DNA from: Acidimicrobiaceae bacterium
GTDB taxonomy: Bacteria > Actinomycetota > Acidimicrobiia > Acidimicrobiales > RAAP-2
Length of the DNA: 64,000 nucleotides
Assembly: GCA_003132205.1 (NCBI GenBank)
Contig: PKWY01000027.1
Location: 154,340-218,339, forward strand
Reading direction: 5' to 3'
The position numbers and the translations under genes were made by a program. Below, piece after piece: positions 18,765-25,809 of this stretch. Positions within the stretch are counted from its first letter, which is position 1. Each line of letters opens with the position of its first letter. The notes beneath the pieces were generated by a model. That model saw only the letters and a list, made by a program, of their open reading frames with translations, was not told where the DNA came from and searched no databases.

Positions 18765-20501
18765 GTGCCAATGGGCAACCCTTCGCCAATTGACCTGACG
18801 AATCCGCTCGTCGTGGCACTCTTTCGCCACAGTGTCTACGTCGCGGCGGTGCTGTGGATCATCGCGATTGGTCTGGCCATACTGCTCGGCGCGGTCGTTC
18901 TTCGCAAAGTCAGCACCTTCAACCTTTCGGTAGCGGGGCTCAATGAGCCGCGTAATCGCAGTCTTCTTCGGATGGCCTTTGGCGCGATCTGGCTGGTCGA
19001 CGGAATCCTTCAGTTCCAGGTTTCGATGCCGCTCGGTCTCGCGAACAACGTCGTGGCGCCGATGGCGAGCGGGACCCCCCACTGGCTCCACCTCTTGATG
19101 AACGATGGTATCGGTGTCTGGAACAACCATCCGATCGCGCTCGCCGTTGGCACCGCGTGGATTCAGGTGGGCCTCGGGATCTTGCTGCTCGTATCGAATT
19201 CGACCATTGGACGCTTCGCTGGGGGTGTCTCGGCCGCGTGGGCGGCAATGATTTGGCTTCTCGGCAACGGGGCTGGCGGCATATTCCAGTCCTCAAGCTC
19301 GATTCTCTTTGGATGGCCCGGAGCCACGCTCTTGTATATCGTGGCGGGCGTGTGGCTGGCGATGTCGCCGGGGTCATTTCCCGAGAAGTTTTCCCGGTAC
19401 ACGTTACGGGGTCTGAGCGTGATGATCGGAGTCGCCGCTGCCCTGCAATTCCTTCCTTCACGGGGGTTCTGGCACGGGGGCAACAGCAATGCGTTGACCG
19501 CCATGACCCAGTCCATGACTGAGATCCCCCAGCCTCACCTGCTCGCATCGATTGCGCGTCACGGGGGAGACATTGCTGGTTCGATGGGTGGGGGATTCAA
19601 CATCGTCATCATCCTGTGGTTGCTCGCTAGTGCTGTGGGACTCTGGATGGCGAGCAGTCGTGGTTGGCGCTGGCCAGTGTGGACGTTCGTCGTTGGGTGC
19701 TTGGCTTTTTGGATCGTGGCGCAGGACGCAGCGATCTTCGGCGGGCTCGCGACTGACCTCAACTCACTGATACCCATGGCCGCCCTCACTTGGGCATCCG
19801 GACCACAGCATGTCGGGAGGGGACCACTCGCGAGGCGTCTTCCGAGGGAGATGCGCTCGAGCTCCGGGTCGGTCCTGGCTTCGTTCGCCTCCGCGATGGT
19901 GATCTTCTCGATCTTCTCCATGGGCCTAGCTTCGGTGTCGTCGGCGGAGAGCACGTTCTTCACGGCGCGCAACGGCTCGGCGATCGAGGCGGACACGGTC
20001 GCGCCTACGTTCACCCTGACCGACCAGTCCGGAGAGAGTTACACCCTTGGTGAACACCCGGGTCGCTTCACGCTTCTTACATTCCTCGATCCCACGTGCT
20101 GGACGGACTGCCCGCTGCTCGGCGAACAACTTGCCAGGGTTCGCCAGGAACTCGGACCAAGCGCCAAGGTGGACATTGTCGCGGTTGCCGCGGATCCCTA
20201 CCACGAGACTCAGGCCGACGACAACCGCTTCATTGCCGTTCATCACCTGGGCGACATCCGGAATTTCTACTTCGTGACTGGAAAGTTGGCGGAGACTAAG
20301 GCAGTCTGGAACTCGTACGGCATCACTGTCGAAATGAAGCCAACTGACAAGATGAGTATCCACTCCGACTACATGTTCATCATCGACTCCCACGGTCGAC
20401 TGAAGTGGATCATTCCTGACGACCCAGCCAACTCGTGGGCCATCGAGAACTCTTCGGAGTCAGAGTTGTTGACCCTCTTGCACAAGTCGGGATTGGTCTG
20501 A
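18765..20501 (+). CDS. Polytopic membrane protein fused to C-terminal SCO1/redoxin domain
   Basis: About 400 aa of hydrophobic segments, then PTFTLTDQSGESYTLG...LTFLDPTCWTDCPLLGEQ (CxxxC) and HSDYMFIIDSHGRLKW. Confidence 0.85.
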   Translation: MPMGNPSPIDLTNPLVVALFRHSVYVAAVLWIIAIGLAILLGAVVLRKVSTFNLSVAGLNEPRNRSLLRMAFGAIWLVDGILQFQVSMPLGLANNVVAPMASGTPHWLHLLMNDGIGVWNNHPIALAVGTAWIQVGLGILLLVSNSTIGRFAGGVSAAWAAMIWLLGNGAGGIFQSSSSILFGWPGATLLYIVAGVWLAMSPGSFPEKFSRYTLRGLSVMIGVAAALQFLPSRGFWHGGNSNALTAMTQSMTEIPQPHLLASIARHGGDIAGSMGGGFNIVIILWLLASAVGLWMASSRGWRWPVWTFVVGCLAFWIVAQDAAIFGGLATDLNSLIPMAALTWASGPQHVGRGPLARRLPREMRSSSGSVLASFASAMVIFSIFSMGLASVSSAESTFFTARNGSAIEADTVAPTFTLTDQSGESYTLGEHPGRFTLLTFLDPTCWTDCPLLGEQLARVRQELGPSAKVDIVAVAADPYHETQADDNRFIAVHHLGDIRNFYFVTGKLAETKAVWNSYGITVEMKPTDKMSIHSDYMFIIDSHGRLKWIIPDDPANSWAIENSSESELLTLLHKSGLV

Positions 20502-20503
20502 CC

Positions 20504-21364
20504 GTGGCCCCGCTAGGTGTCGTCGCTGTTCTCGGTGCGATGCTGGCGACGGTGGCCTACGTTCGCAGAGGGGCTCGTTCGAGGCGCGTGACGCTCCAGT
20601 ACGTGCTGGCCCTAACGTCATGGGCGCTGCTGTGGTTCGCCACGGCGTCGTCGTTCGCCAAGGACGGCATGACGAATCTGCCGGATCACATGATTGGCCA
20701 CGTCATCGTGATGTTCCTCGTACCAATGGGCCTCATCGGGTCGGCGTCGGGCCGGTCCGGCTGGTGGGTGCTTGGAACAACGCAACGTCGCCAGGTTCTT
20801 CGCTGGTGGTACGTAGGACGCCAATGGCGAACCCCTAAGTGGCTGGCGAGCCCGATCCTCGCGGCGGTGCTGCTCAACGCGGTGATGGTTGCGGCCCACG
20901 TCCCCAGGGTCTTCGATTCGGTGATGGAGCACACCTGGGCCATGGACTGGCTGATGGAGCCGGCGTTCCTGCTTTCCGGACTCTTTTTCTTCCATTACCT
21001 CATTCCGGCACCGCCTCGAGGGATCCGCATTCGCCTCAGGTTGCAGCTCTTCATGGTGCTCGTCACGATGCTCGAGATGCTCATCATGGCTATGGCGATG
21101 TCGATCTTTACTAAAGCCGCGTGGTATTCGGTGATGTTGCGCGGCTCGGGCGCCATGACGGGAATGAACATGTCGGGACCGGCGATCACGGTCGCCCAGG
21201 CATTCCACCAGCAGCAGTTGGCCGCGGCGATCTTGTGGGTGTGCGGCGATTTCTGGGCGGTACCGTGCCTCGTGCTGATTACGCGAAGGCTGGTGATGCG
21301 AGACGGGTCGCTCTTCGCCGCCCTCGATCGTCAGTCGGCGCGGATGTCGGGTTTGTCAGTCTGA
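20504..21364 (+). CDS. ctaG: Cytochrome c oxidase assembly factor, caa3_CtaG family membrane protein
   Basis: Polytopic; DHMIGHVIVMFLVPMGLIG, HYLIPAPP, QQLAAAILWVCGDFWAVP typical of CtaG; adjacent to SCO and cox genes. Confidence 0.8.
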   Translation: MAPLGVVAVLGAMLATVAYVRRGARSRRVTLQYVLALTSWALLWFATASSFAKDGMTNLPDHMIGHVIVMFLVPMGLIGSASGRSGWWVLGTTQRRQVLRWWYVGRQWRTPKWLASPILAAVLLNAVMVAAHVPRVFDSVMEHTWAMDWLMEPAFLLSGLFFFHYLIPAPPRGIRIRLRLQLFMVLVTMLEMLIMAMAMSIFTKAAWYSVMLRGSGAMTGMNMSGPAITVAQAFHQQQLAAAILWVCGDFWAVPCLVLITRRLVMRDGSLFAALDRQSARMSGLSV

Positions 21365-21657
21365 GCTGGCTCATGGACCGACTTGAGGTAGTCGTTCCAG
21401 GCCTTCAACTCCGGGTCATCTTCCTCAGTACTCTTAGCCACTGGCCGAACATCCAGTCCTTTTTCCTCCCGCAGCATCTTTCGCCACATGTACACCGCGT
21501 AGCCGCCAAGGAGCGGCCACTCCACGACGTAGGCCCACGACAACGTGTTGCCGCTCAGCGCGCGGCTGGTTTCGAAGATGAACGCGGGGATGCAGATCAG
21601 CTCTGCGAGGAACAAGCCAAGGTGGATTCTGAACGTATTCTTAGCAATTGGCGCCAC
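21331..21657 (-). CDS. Small hypothetical protein with about two TM segments
   Basis: 108-aa ORF divergent from the cupredoxin/cox operon; TAAAGT plus 7 nt plus GTG; hydrophobic IHLGLFLAELICIPAFIF and VVEWPLLGGYAVYMW. Confidence 0.6.
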   Translation of the reverse strand: MAPIAKNTFRIHLGLFLAELICIPAFIFETSRALSGNTLSWAYVVEWPLLGGYAVYMWRKMLREEKGLDVRPVAKSTEEDDPELKAWNDYLKSVHEPAQTDKPDIRAD

Positions 21658-21773: not shown

Positions 21774-22448
21774 ATGAATCGGTCGAAGTCACTCGGCGTA
21801 GCCTTGGCTTCGGTGCTCCTTGGTGGCGGTGTGTTGGCCCTGGCAGGGTTTGCCCTGGCCAGCGCGACTCCTCACCAGGCGGCATTGAACTGTGTTCCAA
21901 GCCAGTCCGCACCAAATACCTGCAACCTGAATCTCAGCACGTTCCCTGACTCCATGGCTGGCGAGCAGGGGAAGGATGGTGGCGTTCATCCTGACTGGGT
22001 CTCCTACTCAAACGACAACTTGGTGGTACCCGCTAACACGACGGTAAACGTCACGATCGACCAGTACGACTCGGGTGGGTCACTGAACAACGCCTTTTTC
22101 GACCAGGTGATGGGCACCGTAGGTGGAACCGCCACTATTGACGGCAAGACGGTGTCGAGCGTCGACCCCACGAACGTCGGTCACACGTTCACGCTGCGTG
22201 GCATTCCCGGAAGCAGCAAGACCATGTTCGTGTCTGTTCCGCTCCCTGCGGACTCGAATACACAAGCAGTGAACATCGGCCAAGGCCAGTACACGAAGCC
22301 CGTCGTCGTTCAATTCTCGTTCAAGACCGGCGCCAAGGGCGTCTACGAATGGAACTGTGAGTTCCCATGCGGAAGCACCCGTGAAGGCCAGTTCGGTGAA
22401 GCAATGTCGGCGTACGGCTACATGTCCGGCACCCTGACGGTCAACTAA
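21774..22448 (+). CDS. Secreted cupredoxin-like protein, CuA-related
   Basis: Signal/TM N-terminus; NVGHTFTLRG ... GVYEWNCEFPCG...AMSAYGYMSGTLTV resembles CuA/cupredoxin C-terminus; AAAGGAG RBS; directly upstream of coxB. Confidence 0.7.
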   Translation: MNRSKSLGVALASVLLGGGVLALAGFALASATPHQAALNCVPSQSAPNTCNLNLSTFPDSMAGEQGKDGGVHPDWVSYSNDNLVVPANTTVNVTIDQYDSGGSLNNAFFDQVMGTVGGTATIDGKTVSSVDPTNVGHTFTLRGIPGSSKTMFVSVPLPADSNTQAVNIGQGQYTKPVVVQFSFKTGAKGVYEWNCEFPCGSTREGQFGEAMSAYGYMSGTLTVN

Positions 22449-22456
22449 GGAGAATC

Positions 22457-23191
22457 GTGTCTACCTCTACTAACAAGAAGTCCCTGAAGGGGATGCTCTG
22501 GACTTGGGCGGCGCTCACGGTTGTGGGCGTGATTATTGGCCTCTACGCGCCGGCGTGGATCATGCCCAAATCGATGAGCAACAACATGCACCTGACGATC
22601 CTCACGATGGTCGTCTTCACCGTCGCCGCGGCGCCAGTGGCGGCGGGCGTATACGCCTCGGCGCTCTTCGCACTGGCCCGCTGGACGCACAAGGGTGACG
22701 ATGTTCCCTCCGCGGGTCCGGCGGTTCGCGAGAACGCGATGGTCGTCACCACGTGGTTGGTCGTTTCCACGATCCTGACGGTGTTCCTCCTCATTTGGGG
22801 CTTGGGAGCTTTGGCGGTTGACAATGGCTCCACCGGGAAGAATCCACTGGTGGTGGACGTAACCGGTCAGCAGTGGGTCTGGTCATTCTCGTACCCGGGC
22901 ACGCACGTCTCGTCTCCTGACCTCTATCTCCCGCTCAACCGCGAGGTTGAGTTCCGAGTCACTGCACTCGACGTCACCCACGGCTTCTGGATCGCCAACA
23001 TGGGTGTCCAGGTCGACGCCAACGTCGGCACGATTACAACCATTCACACGACTCCGGACAAGTTGGGTGTCTTCGATATTCGATGCACCCAGTTCTGCGG
23101 TTTGAACCACGCATTCATGGTCACCGTGGGACACGTCGTAACTGCACAACAATTCACGAGTTGGCTCGCTTCACAGCCACAGCGAGCCTAG
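22457..23191 (+). CDS. ctaC: Cytochrome c oxidase subunit II
   Basis: CuA ligands DVTHGFW and RCTQFCGLNHAFM (C-x3-C-x3-H-x2-M); QQWVWSFSYPG. Confidence 0.95.
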   Translation: MSTSTNKKSLKGMLWTWAALTVVGVIIGLYAPAWIMPKSMSNNMHLTILTMVVFTVAAAPVAAGVYASALFALARWTHKGDDVPSAGPAVRENAMVVTTWLVVSTILTVFLLIWGLGALAVDNGSTGKNPLVVDVTGQQWVWSFSYPGTHVSSPDLYLPLNREVEFRVTALDVTHGFWIANMGVQVDANVGTITTIHTTPDKLGVFDIRCTQFCGLNHAFMVTVGHVVTAQQFTSWLASQPQRA

Positions 23192-23200
23192 GAGGTCAGC

Positions 23201-25066
23201 ATGACAACAACATTGGAACAGGCCAAGACCGCAGCGATACCTCAGGGTGGCGGGTTGCATCGTCGTTTGAACATGGCCACCGCGATGATCGGTGGAATCG
23301 TATTCGCGTGGCTCTTTTGGTACCTCGCGCACCACTTCCTTGACGCGACGAGCCGAACCTACAGCGACCAAGTGGCTGCCTCGTTGACCATCGGTTGGAT
23401 TGTTGGCTTCTGGCTGGGGATTGGTGCATTCGTTGCGCCGCTGCGATGGCTGATCGGTCGCGACAACACCCGCGCTGACGACCTCTACCTGGCCGGACAA
23501 GGCCAGGGAACGTCGCGCTACTGGAAGTTCACCACCGACCACAAAGTGGTCGGTGTCCAGTACATCATTATGACGATGGTGCTCTTGGGCGCTGGTGGGA
23601 TCTTGGCCATGGCTATCCGCACTGAACTGATCGTGCCGGGCAACCATTTTGTGAACCAGCAGGTGTACAACGGCTTCATCGCGGTGCACGGCATGTTGAT
23701 GATTCTGGCGCTCATCGTCATGGTTGCTGGACCGTGGGGCAACTTTGTGATGCCGATCATGTGCGGAGCGCGCGACATGGCGTTTCCACGTTTGAACGCA
23801 CTTAGCCTCTGGACCCTCGTAGGCGCAGCCGGTCTTCTTCTCACGACGTTGGCCGTCGGCAGCCTGACGATGGGATGGGTGGTGTTGGCGCCGATCGCGG
23901 ACCAGGCGGGAGTCGGAATGGACTTCTTCGCCATGGCGATCATCGTTTTCACGGTGTCGACCACGGTGGCGGGTGTCAACACGATCTGTACGATTCTCAC
24001 GATGCGCACGAAGGGAATGACCCTTGCGCGTCTGCCCATCTTCGTGTGGGGTGTGATGATCGCGGCTGCACTCGGGATCTACGCCTTCCCCTTCTTCTCA
24101 TTGGTTGAGGCGCAGACACTGATGGACCGTACTTTCAGCACGAGCTTCTTCGTTGCGAATGCCGGAGGCACCGGCTGGCTTCAGGCGAACCTCTTCTGGC
24201 TGATGGGACACCCTGAGGTGTACGTGATTCTGCTGCCCGCGGTGGGCGCACTCTTCGAGATCGCTGCAGTCATGTCGAGGAAGCCAGTCTTCAGTTACCG
24301 AACCGCTGTCGCCGGCATGACCGGTCTTGCTGGACTCAGCATCTTGGTGTGGGCCCACCATATGTTCACCACGGGCTGGGCACCGACACTCGGGGGCCCT
24401 TTCATGCTCACCACGGAACTCATCTCGATTCCGACGGGCCTGTTCTTCCTGGTACTCATTGGCACCCTCTGGCGCGGAAACATATGGATGAAGCTTCCGA
24501 CAATATGGATGTTTGGCTTCATCGCGAACTTCATCATCGCTGGCGTGACGGGTATCTACCTCTCGGACATCCCACTCGATGACCAGTTGCACGGCACGAT
24601 GTTCGTGACAGCCCACTTCCACTACGTGTTCGTTGGCTCGGTGCTCTTCGGCGCGGTCTCGGCTTTGGCCTTCTGGTACCCGAAGGTTACGGGTCGGTTC
24701 CTCAACGAATTCATGGGTCGTATCTCGTTCTGGCTGACCTTCATAGGGGTCCAGGTGACGTTCCTCGCAATGTTCGCCTCGGGACTCCGGGGCATGCCTC
24801 GTCGCTACTCCTCGTATGCCTTCATCTTCGAGCACACGAACTTCATGACCACCATCGGGGCATACACGATCATGGCTGGCATGCTCGTCTTGCTGGGTGC
24901 GGTGATCACCTCGTGGAACAAGGGTGAGCCCGCGGGACCAAACCCGTGGCACGCCAACTCGCTCGAGTGGATGGTTCCAACGCCGCCACCCCTGGAGAAC
25001 TTCGAAGTACTGCCGGTAATCACTGAAGACCCCTACAACTACGGAGAGGAACTGGTGCGTTCATGA
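23201..25066 (+). CDS. ctaD: Cytochrome c oxidase subunit I (type A1 heme-copper oxidase) with N-terminal extension
   Basis: TTDHKVVGVQYI, AVHGMLM, DMAFPR, MGHPEVYVILLP, WAHHMF, TAHFHYVFVG. Confidence 0.97.
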   Translation: MTTTLEQAKTAAIPQGGGLHRRLNMATAMIGGIVFAWLFWYLAHHFLDATSRTYSDQVAASLTIGWIVGFWLGIGAFVAPLRWLIGRDNTRADDLYLAGQGQGTSRYWKFTTDHKVVGVQYIIMTMVLLGAGGILAMAIRTELIVPGNHFVNQQVYNGFIAVHGMLMILALIVMVAGPWGNFVMPIMCGARDMAFPRLNALSLWTLVGAAGLLLTTLAVGSLTMGWVVLAPIADQAGVGMDFFAMAIIVFTVSTTVAGVNTICTILTMRTKGMTLARLPIFVWGVMIAAALGIYAFPFFSLVEAQTLMDRTFSTSFFVANAGGTGWLQANLFWLMGHPEVYVILLPAVGALFEIAAVMSRKPVFSYRTAVAGMTGLAGLSILVWAHHMFTTGWAPTLGGPFMLTTELISIPTGLFFLVLIGTLWRGNIWMKLPTIWMFGFIANFIIAGVTGIYLSDIPLDDQLHGTMFVTAHFHYVFVGSVLFGAVSALAFWYPKVTGRFLNEFMGRISFWLTFIGVQVTFLAMFASGLRGMPRRYSSYAFIFEHTNFMTTIGAYTIMAGMLVLLGAVITSWNKGEPAGPNPWHANSLEWMVPTPPPLENFEVLPVITEDPYNYGEELVRS

Positions 25067-25809
25067 GTATCGACACCCACTCAGAGCTCGATGCTCACGG
25101 AGCGCACGACGGAGGGCATCACGAGCCGCCCGAGGTAGTCGACGGACGTCAACGCATGGGCATTTGGCTCTTCATTGGCGGTGACATGATCGGACTCGCC
25201 GCGCTGCTGTTTACCTATCTGTACCTGCGCGGTGTGGATAGCGGTGGCCACTGGATGAGCATGTGGGGTTATACCGGCCACCCATATTCGTACTACTACA
25301 ACATCCTGGACGTGAAGGGTGGTTCGATACCTAATCCGAAGTTGATTCACGTTGGGACGTTGTCCGCCGGGCTGAACTGGTTGGTGACGATCTTGACGGT
25401 GGTCAGCGCGGGAATCGTCTGGGCGGCGGAACGTGGACTTCGCGCCACGAAGAATGCGAAGTCCTATTCGTCGATGGCGGCTGTTGCCACCGCGGTGACG
25501 CTCGTTGCGGTTGTCTTCACGGTCATCCAACTCCGCCACATCCCGCCGATCTTCTCCGCGCACGAAGACAGCCTGACGATGGCCTACACCGCGTACGACT
25601 CGACCATGATGGCCATTGTCGGATCGACCCTGATCCACTTGATCATCCTGGCCTTTCTGGGGCTGGGATTGACGATTCGTTCGGCACGGGGCGCAATCAA
25701 TGGAACCAAGTGGTACCAGGCTCGCCTGGTTCGCTTCTTCTGGGTTTGGGTGGCCGTCGCCAGCGTGATTATCTCCGCGGTAACGACTACAATTAACACA
25801 ATTCATTAA
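25063..25809 (+). CDS. ctaE: Cytochrome c oxidase subunit III
   Basis: RQRMGIWLFIGGDMIGLAALLFTYLYLR, LHLIILAFLGLGLTIR-like TM segments, cox context. Confidence 0.88.
   Translation: MSIDTHSELDAHGAHDGGHHEPPEVVDGRQRMGIWLFIGGDMIGLAALLFTYLYLRGVDSGGHWMSMWGYTGHPYSYYYNILDVKGGSIPNPKLIHVGTLSAGLNWLVTILTVVSAGIVWAAERGLRATKNAKSYSSMAAVATAVTLVAVVFTVIQLRHIPPIFSAHEDSLTMAYTAYDSTMMAIVGSTLIHLIILAFLGLGLTIRSARGAINGTKWYQARLVRFFWVWVAVASVIISAVTTTINTIH

Follow-up and report, generated by a model that had tools for sequence, protein, structure and literature searches.

A cupredoxin family encoded directly ahead of coxB in Acidimicrobiales is a candidate electron-transfer partner of aa3 oxidases

In the stretch of Acidimicrobiaceae DNA analysed here (64,000 nucleotides of contig PKWY01000027.1, hereafter the window), the genes of an aa3-type oxidase are headed by a gene, cup, whose product represents a large unnamed family; its members occur in Acidimicrobiales and in one or more further actinobacterial classes. 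The family combines an unusual set of conserved ligands with a role niche that is already known, and on balance we regard Cup as a membrane-tethered electron-transfer cupredoxin serving the downstream oxidase. Cup would be a dedicated extracytoplasmic electron partner of that enzyme: electrons would reach it from the di-haem QcrC of the bcc complex, or from NrfD-type modules in relatives having those, and would pass on to the CuA of CoxB, so that Cup would do the job of the extra c-type cytochromes of related bacteria. That Cup binds copper (one or two atoms) and is redox-active is a prediction, as are its electron donor and the direction in which the electrons flow.

An earlier note on this DNA, made from the sequence alone, had described an exported, CuA-like protein encoded by the first gene of a cox operon. 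The reading frame is present as described, starts with ATG and encodes 224 amino acids ending in GVYEWNCEFPCGSTREGQFGEAMSAYGYMSGTLTVN (Table 1). It opens a plus-strand unit with the order cup-coxB-coxA-coxC, and is taken as the first gene because a small minus-strand ORF sits upstream. The adjacency to ctaC (coxB) that the note reported also stands, although 8 bases, rather than 9, separate cup from the GTG of coxB at 22457; an AAGGAG-like sequence overlaps the cup stop codon ahead of this GTG. The hydrophobic N-terminal helix, in which a lipobox was looked for and found absent, supports the predicted export or anchoring of the protein. The presumed coxC had no family match over the cut-off. 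Between ctaG and cup, the minus-strand ORF (21331-21657) encodes a small hydrophobic protein of 108 amino acids with no Pfam family, and most loci of the genus have it. Further upstream, the product of 18765-20501 joins a multi-pass membrane N-terminal part to its SCO1/SenC domain, and this fusion gene is kept upstream of ctaG in most of the related cox loci within the genus.

Table 1. Features of the cup locus in the window and tandem arrays of cup paralogues at other loci
Feature	Position	Strand	Evidence
Membrane protein with C-terminal SCO1/SenC domain	18765..20501	+	PF02630 E 1.1e-12, residues 415-545
ctaG-like assembly factor (Caa3_CtaG)	20435..21364	+	PF09678 E 4e-22
Oxidase-linked cupredoxin (cup), 224 aa	21774..22448	+	ORF, alignment, AlphaFold2, Foldseek
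Predicted N-terminal membrane helix or signal anchor, residues 3-31	21780..21866	+	AlphaFold2 helix, hydropathy maximum, no lipobox
H137 (HTF), invariant, aligns with first CuA His	22182..22184	+	79/79; hhalign
C195-x2-P198-C199, aligns with CuA Cys pair	22356..22370	+	79/79; hhalign
M211-x5-M217, invariant Met pair; M217 aligns with CuA Met	22404..22424	+	alignment, hhalign
coxB (ctaC), aa3 oxidase subunit II, intact CuA motif CTQFCGLNHAFM	22457..23191	+	PF00116 E 1.1e-14
coxA, oxidase subunit I	23201..25066	+	PF00115 over cut-off; TIGR02891 E 3.7e-160, below curated cut-off
Presumed coxC, oxidase subunit III	25063..25809	+	operon position, conservation
Tandem cup paralogue arrays	L095:4902-9952, L098:5382-10408, L088:198-4145, L086:5621-8220, L097:5674-8485

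The earlier note had held that clear membership in a characterised family would count against its reading; scans of Cup against Pfam, NCBIfam and PHROG found no family. The COX2 profile PF00116 did not match the window protein at E<=1 or any of 34 members at E<=0.1, nitrosocyanin (TIGR03096) was not matched in the NCBIfam scan, and a PDB search with the single Cup sequence returned chance matches only. Matches to CbtB (E 0.05-0.08) were rejected, as they merely reflect the N-terminal hydrophobic helix. Relatives of Cup were found at 13 loci in the searched genome contigs, in 39/61 near relatives and in 46/198 genomes of the order Acidimicrobiales, and further members occur in other actinobacterial lineages, including 13/149 genomes of another class.

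The alignment of 79 members reaches down to about 25% identity, and only H137, C195, P198, C199, M211, M217 and G219 are invariant in all of them. Because of this invariance, and because the gene precedes coxB at every cox-linked locus (see below), the sequence features of Cup are not due to chance. The C-x3-C, upstream His and downstream Met singled out in the earlier note are thus family-wide, and the family has one more invariant Met, M211, which the note did not mention. The second CuA His is missing: the full motif H...C-x3-C-x3-H-x2-M is absent throughout the 79 members, and in the profile alignment its second His falls on Y214, a position that varies freely (Y/Q/F/I/M/L/V/T and others). 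About 10 residues are indeed inserted between C199 and M211; it is Y214, however, and not an inserted residue, that takes the place of the His. The spacing in the window protein is C195-x3-C199-x11-M211-x5-M217 with no His in the loop, and across the family the C199-M211 loop is 3-14 residues long while the M-x5-M spacing is fixed. A few unlinked paralogues deviate, with C199 changed to Ser in L099_458 and the second Met region altered in L069. H72 (HPxW), a candidate for the missing His ligand, was rejected, since 36/79 members have another residue or a gap there. The ligands are predicted from the alignment: they are probably drawn from H137, C195, C199, M211 and M217, with Met replacing the second His, and the site probably derives from a CuA- or auracyanin-like one. 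The C-x2-P-C spacing and the loss of the second His usual for type 1 sites would also fit a thiol protein that has lost copper, with a redox-active or structural C195-C199 disulphide, acting as a reductant for the CoxB cysteines; we consider this very improbable, as it leaves the invariance of H137, M211 and M217 unexplained, even with loop lengths of 3-14.

The description of Cup as a CuA-like cupredoxin, for which structure prediction and comparison to CuA had been proposed, was borne out. The AlphaFold2 model reached a pLDDT of 79 with 34 sequences and 89.9 with 79, with the lowest confidence around residues 200-210 (block mean 61), and has a cupredoxin fold that Foldseek places with rusticyanin, auracyanin and the CuA domains of ba3 oxidase and nitrous oxide reductase. 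Against targets of a single domain the TM-scores lie at about 0.45-0.64, depending on the target; such moderate values are to be expected of an elaborated cupredoxin. Alignment of the family with 33 neighbouring CoxB proteins by hhalign gave a probability of 94.8%, with H137 aligned to the CuA His, C195 and C199 to its two Cys, and M217 to its Met. Together, the model and alignments support a single-domain cupredoxin that is a distant homologue of the CuA domain. Cup lines up with the CuA domain (PF00116) at the His, the C-x3-C and the final Met, and this domain ranks high by fold, but Cup escapes the PF00116 profile, lacks the second His, has about 10 extra loop residues and, compared with the CuA domain of subunit II, has one membrane helix and is encoded separately from CoxB. 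Rusticyanin, the respiratory cupredoxin of acidophiles, is the top fold match; it is a periplasmic type 1 protein with another ligand spacing and no C-x3-C. The structure of its His143Met mutant (PDB 2cal) may offer a precedent for Met taking the place of His. In the collection of papers searched, nothing turned up on this mutant, on a cupredoxin/NrfD link or on PmoD-type CuA.

By sequence, the top solved relatives in a family-profile search of the PDB were the auracyanins (Roseiflexus auracyanin, E 8e-5; auracyanin A, E 9e-5), which in Chloroflexus and Roseiflexus are cupredoxin electron carriers with a type 1 site of Cys, two His and Met, and which are also among the top folds. Type 1 blue copper proteins such as auracyanin and rusticyanin have two His ligands, whereas the Cup family has one invariant His, and we know of no auracyanin gene encoded before coxB. 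A parallel in gene position is AcoP, with homologues in Sulfobacillus, which like Cup is a single-domain cupredoxin with a membrane anchor (predicted in Cup) and a gene in the cox cluster. The green copper site of AcoP has the ligands H85 and C159-x6-H166-x4-M171, whereas Cup lacks the second His but has two Cys and two Met, and the family profile gave no significant match to AcoP chains (E 0.25). The best explanation, by analogy, is that Cup may resemble AcoP or auracyanin in role, while it is not detectably an AcoP homologue beyond the fold. AcoP was first proposed as an oxidase-stabilising subunit; a partnership with the oxidase, and electron exchange with a cytochrome c, have been attributed to it (PMC4059628, PMC5982212).

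We next consider the linkage of cup to the oxidase genes. All 67 distinct cox-linked cup copies directly precede coxB, with coxA following where the locus reaches that far, and this arrangement spans two actinobacterial classes. The complete CuA motif is present in all 76 CoxB records, some of which are duplicates between collections; since every CoxB examined keeps its CuA, cup adds to this centre and is not a substitute for it. Cup and CoxB distances correlate strongly (Mantel r 0.91), which alone is weak evidence because shared ancestry also gives such a correlation. The genus contains two cup-coxB lineages, in which both genes split alike with no mixing, and for either gene the distances between the lineages exceed every distance within them, which suggests that cup and coxB move as a pair. 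At one locus (L024:1501-2240) a cox operon remnant has lost coxB and nearly all of coxA, and its cup is a frame-shifted and truncated pseudogene beside a coxC remnant, while the same genome retains another intact cup on a different contig. In this one case cup decayed when its oxidase was lost, although a single deletion event could account for both.

The close co-inheritance of Cup and CoxB would also be expected of a structural accessory subunit that stabilises the oxidase, for instance when the external pH is low, and whose copper would not matter to electron flow; AcoP, found in acidophile cox clusters, keeps the A. ferrooxidans oxidase optimally active (PMC4059628, PMC5982212). We nevertheless judge such a role improbable, given that the five residues that could bind metal never change while the remainder of the protein diverges, and that unlinked paralogues exist without an oxidase.

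An electron-transfer role for Cup is consistent with the distribution of cytochromes c. The window genome has a ctaE-qcrCAB-like cluster, whose di-haem QcrC is the sole cytochrome c detected, and two aa3-type oxidases; the one at C34 has a COX2 subunit and no cup alongside. Cytochromes c were inventoried by six-frame searches with PF00034, in which one di-haem QcrC yields two domain matches. Two or fewer matches were found in 45/46 genomes carrying the Cup family, a count that takes in those with unlinked paralogues only, compared with 23/152 non-carriers (198 genomes; Fisher p 4e-26), the other 129/152 having more than two; counted by taxonomic family the figures were 16/17 and 3/44 (p 8e-11), both tests leaving shared ancestry and lifestyle uncontrolled. 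The anticorrelation may reflect either of these, and the 23 non-carrier genomes with equally few cytochromes count against the carrier role. Other actinobacterial bcc-aa3 supercomplexes transfer electrons from QcrC to CuA without an extra carrier, and so one is not strictly needed.

The Cup members outside cox loci form tandem arrays, for example those in Table 1. In the three clusters tested (L088, L095 and L098), the arrays are accompanied by genes for a [4Fe-4S] protein and an NrfD/DsrP-like membrane protein; the best NCBIfam match of the [4Fe-4S] protein of L095 and L098 was DsrO, below the cut-off, and no cytochrome was noticed in a non-exhaustive scan of these clusters. It is possible that the arrays and their DsrO/NrfD-like genes encode a quinol:cupredoxin oxidoreductase without haem. 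Auracyanins have been associated with alternative complex III, another assembly with NrfD-type subunits, and by this analogy it is plausible that the Cup paralogues act as periplasmic electron acceptors. By eye, the L095 and L088 arrays also adjoin an apparent response regulator/histidine kinase pair. A Sco-like match near the L095 array (1680-2627), the one checked of those near the paralogue arrays, had no Pfam domain, and these matches were dropped as evidence for a chaperone.

The earlier note had left three options, an electron carrier, a CuA donor chaperone or an accessory oxidase subunit. Of these the electron carrier is favoured, because of the cytochrome c anticorrelation, the relatedness to auracyanins and the paralogues beside NrfD modules, and the other two less so. 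A more specific proposal is tentative and in our view rather doubtful: that Cup holds a natural CuA-like centre, with Met for the second His, on a tethered cupredoxin that replaces cytochrome c across a bacterial order, between bcc or NrfD-type quinol modules and aa3 oxidases. More generally, a family that accompanies aa3 oxidases and occurs almost solely in genomes with QcrC as the lone c-type cytochrome would mean that respiratory electron flow in many Acidimicrobiales, probable acidophilic iron oxidisers included, runs via copper instead of haem carriers, and its unchanging His/Cys2/Met2 set would offer a natural experiment on the design of CuA and type 1 sites.

The chaperone, for its part, would bind copper via H137 and the C-x3-C, as Sco does, and load the CuA of CoxB. 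We consider it unlikely, though with an appreciable chance: Sco-domain and CtaG-like assembly genes share the cluster, the C-x3-C with a distant His resembles the Sco motif CXXXCXnH, and cup is strictly linked to a coxB with an intact CuA. However, the Sco-domain gene is already there, many paralogues adjoin NrfD/FeS genes and no CuA, the closest sequence relatives are auracyanins, an anticorrelation with cytochrome c is not expected of a chaperone, and the second oxidase does without an adjacent cup in spite of its COX2 subunit. Sco and PCuAC are the known CuA loading pair (PMC9145763). Sco shares the C-x3-C and His with Cup but has a thioredoxin fold, whereas Cup is predicted to be a cupredoxin; PCuAC has a cupredoxin-like fold as in Cup (PMC9145763), but its motif H(M)X10MX21HXM is absent from the Cup sequence, as is its Pfam family.

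In the window, the CuA loop of CoxB itself (23084-23119) contains CTQFC; many CoxB proteins have Glu at the position of the Gln (C-x-E-x-C), and the Gln is also present in many near relatives.
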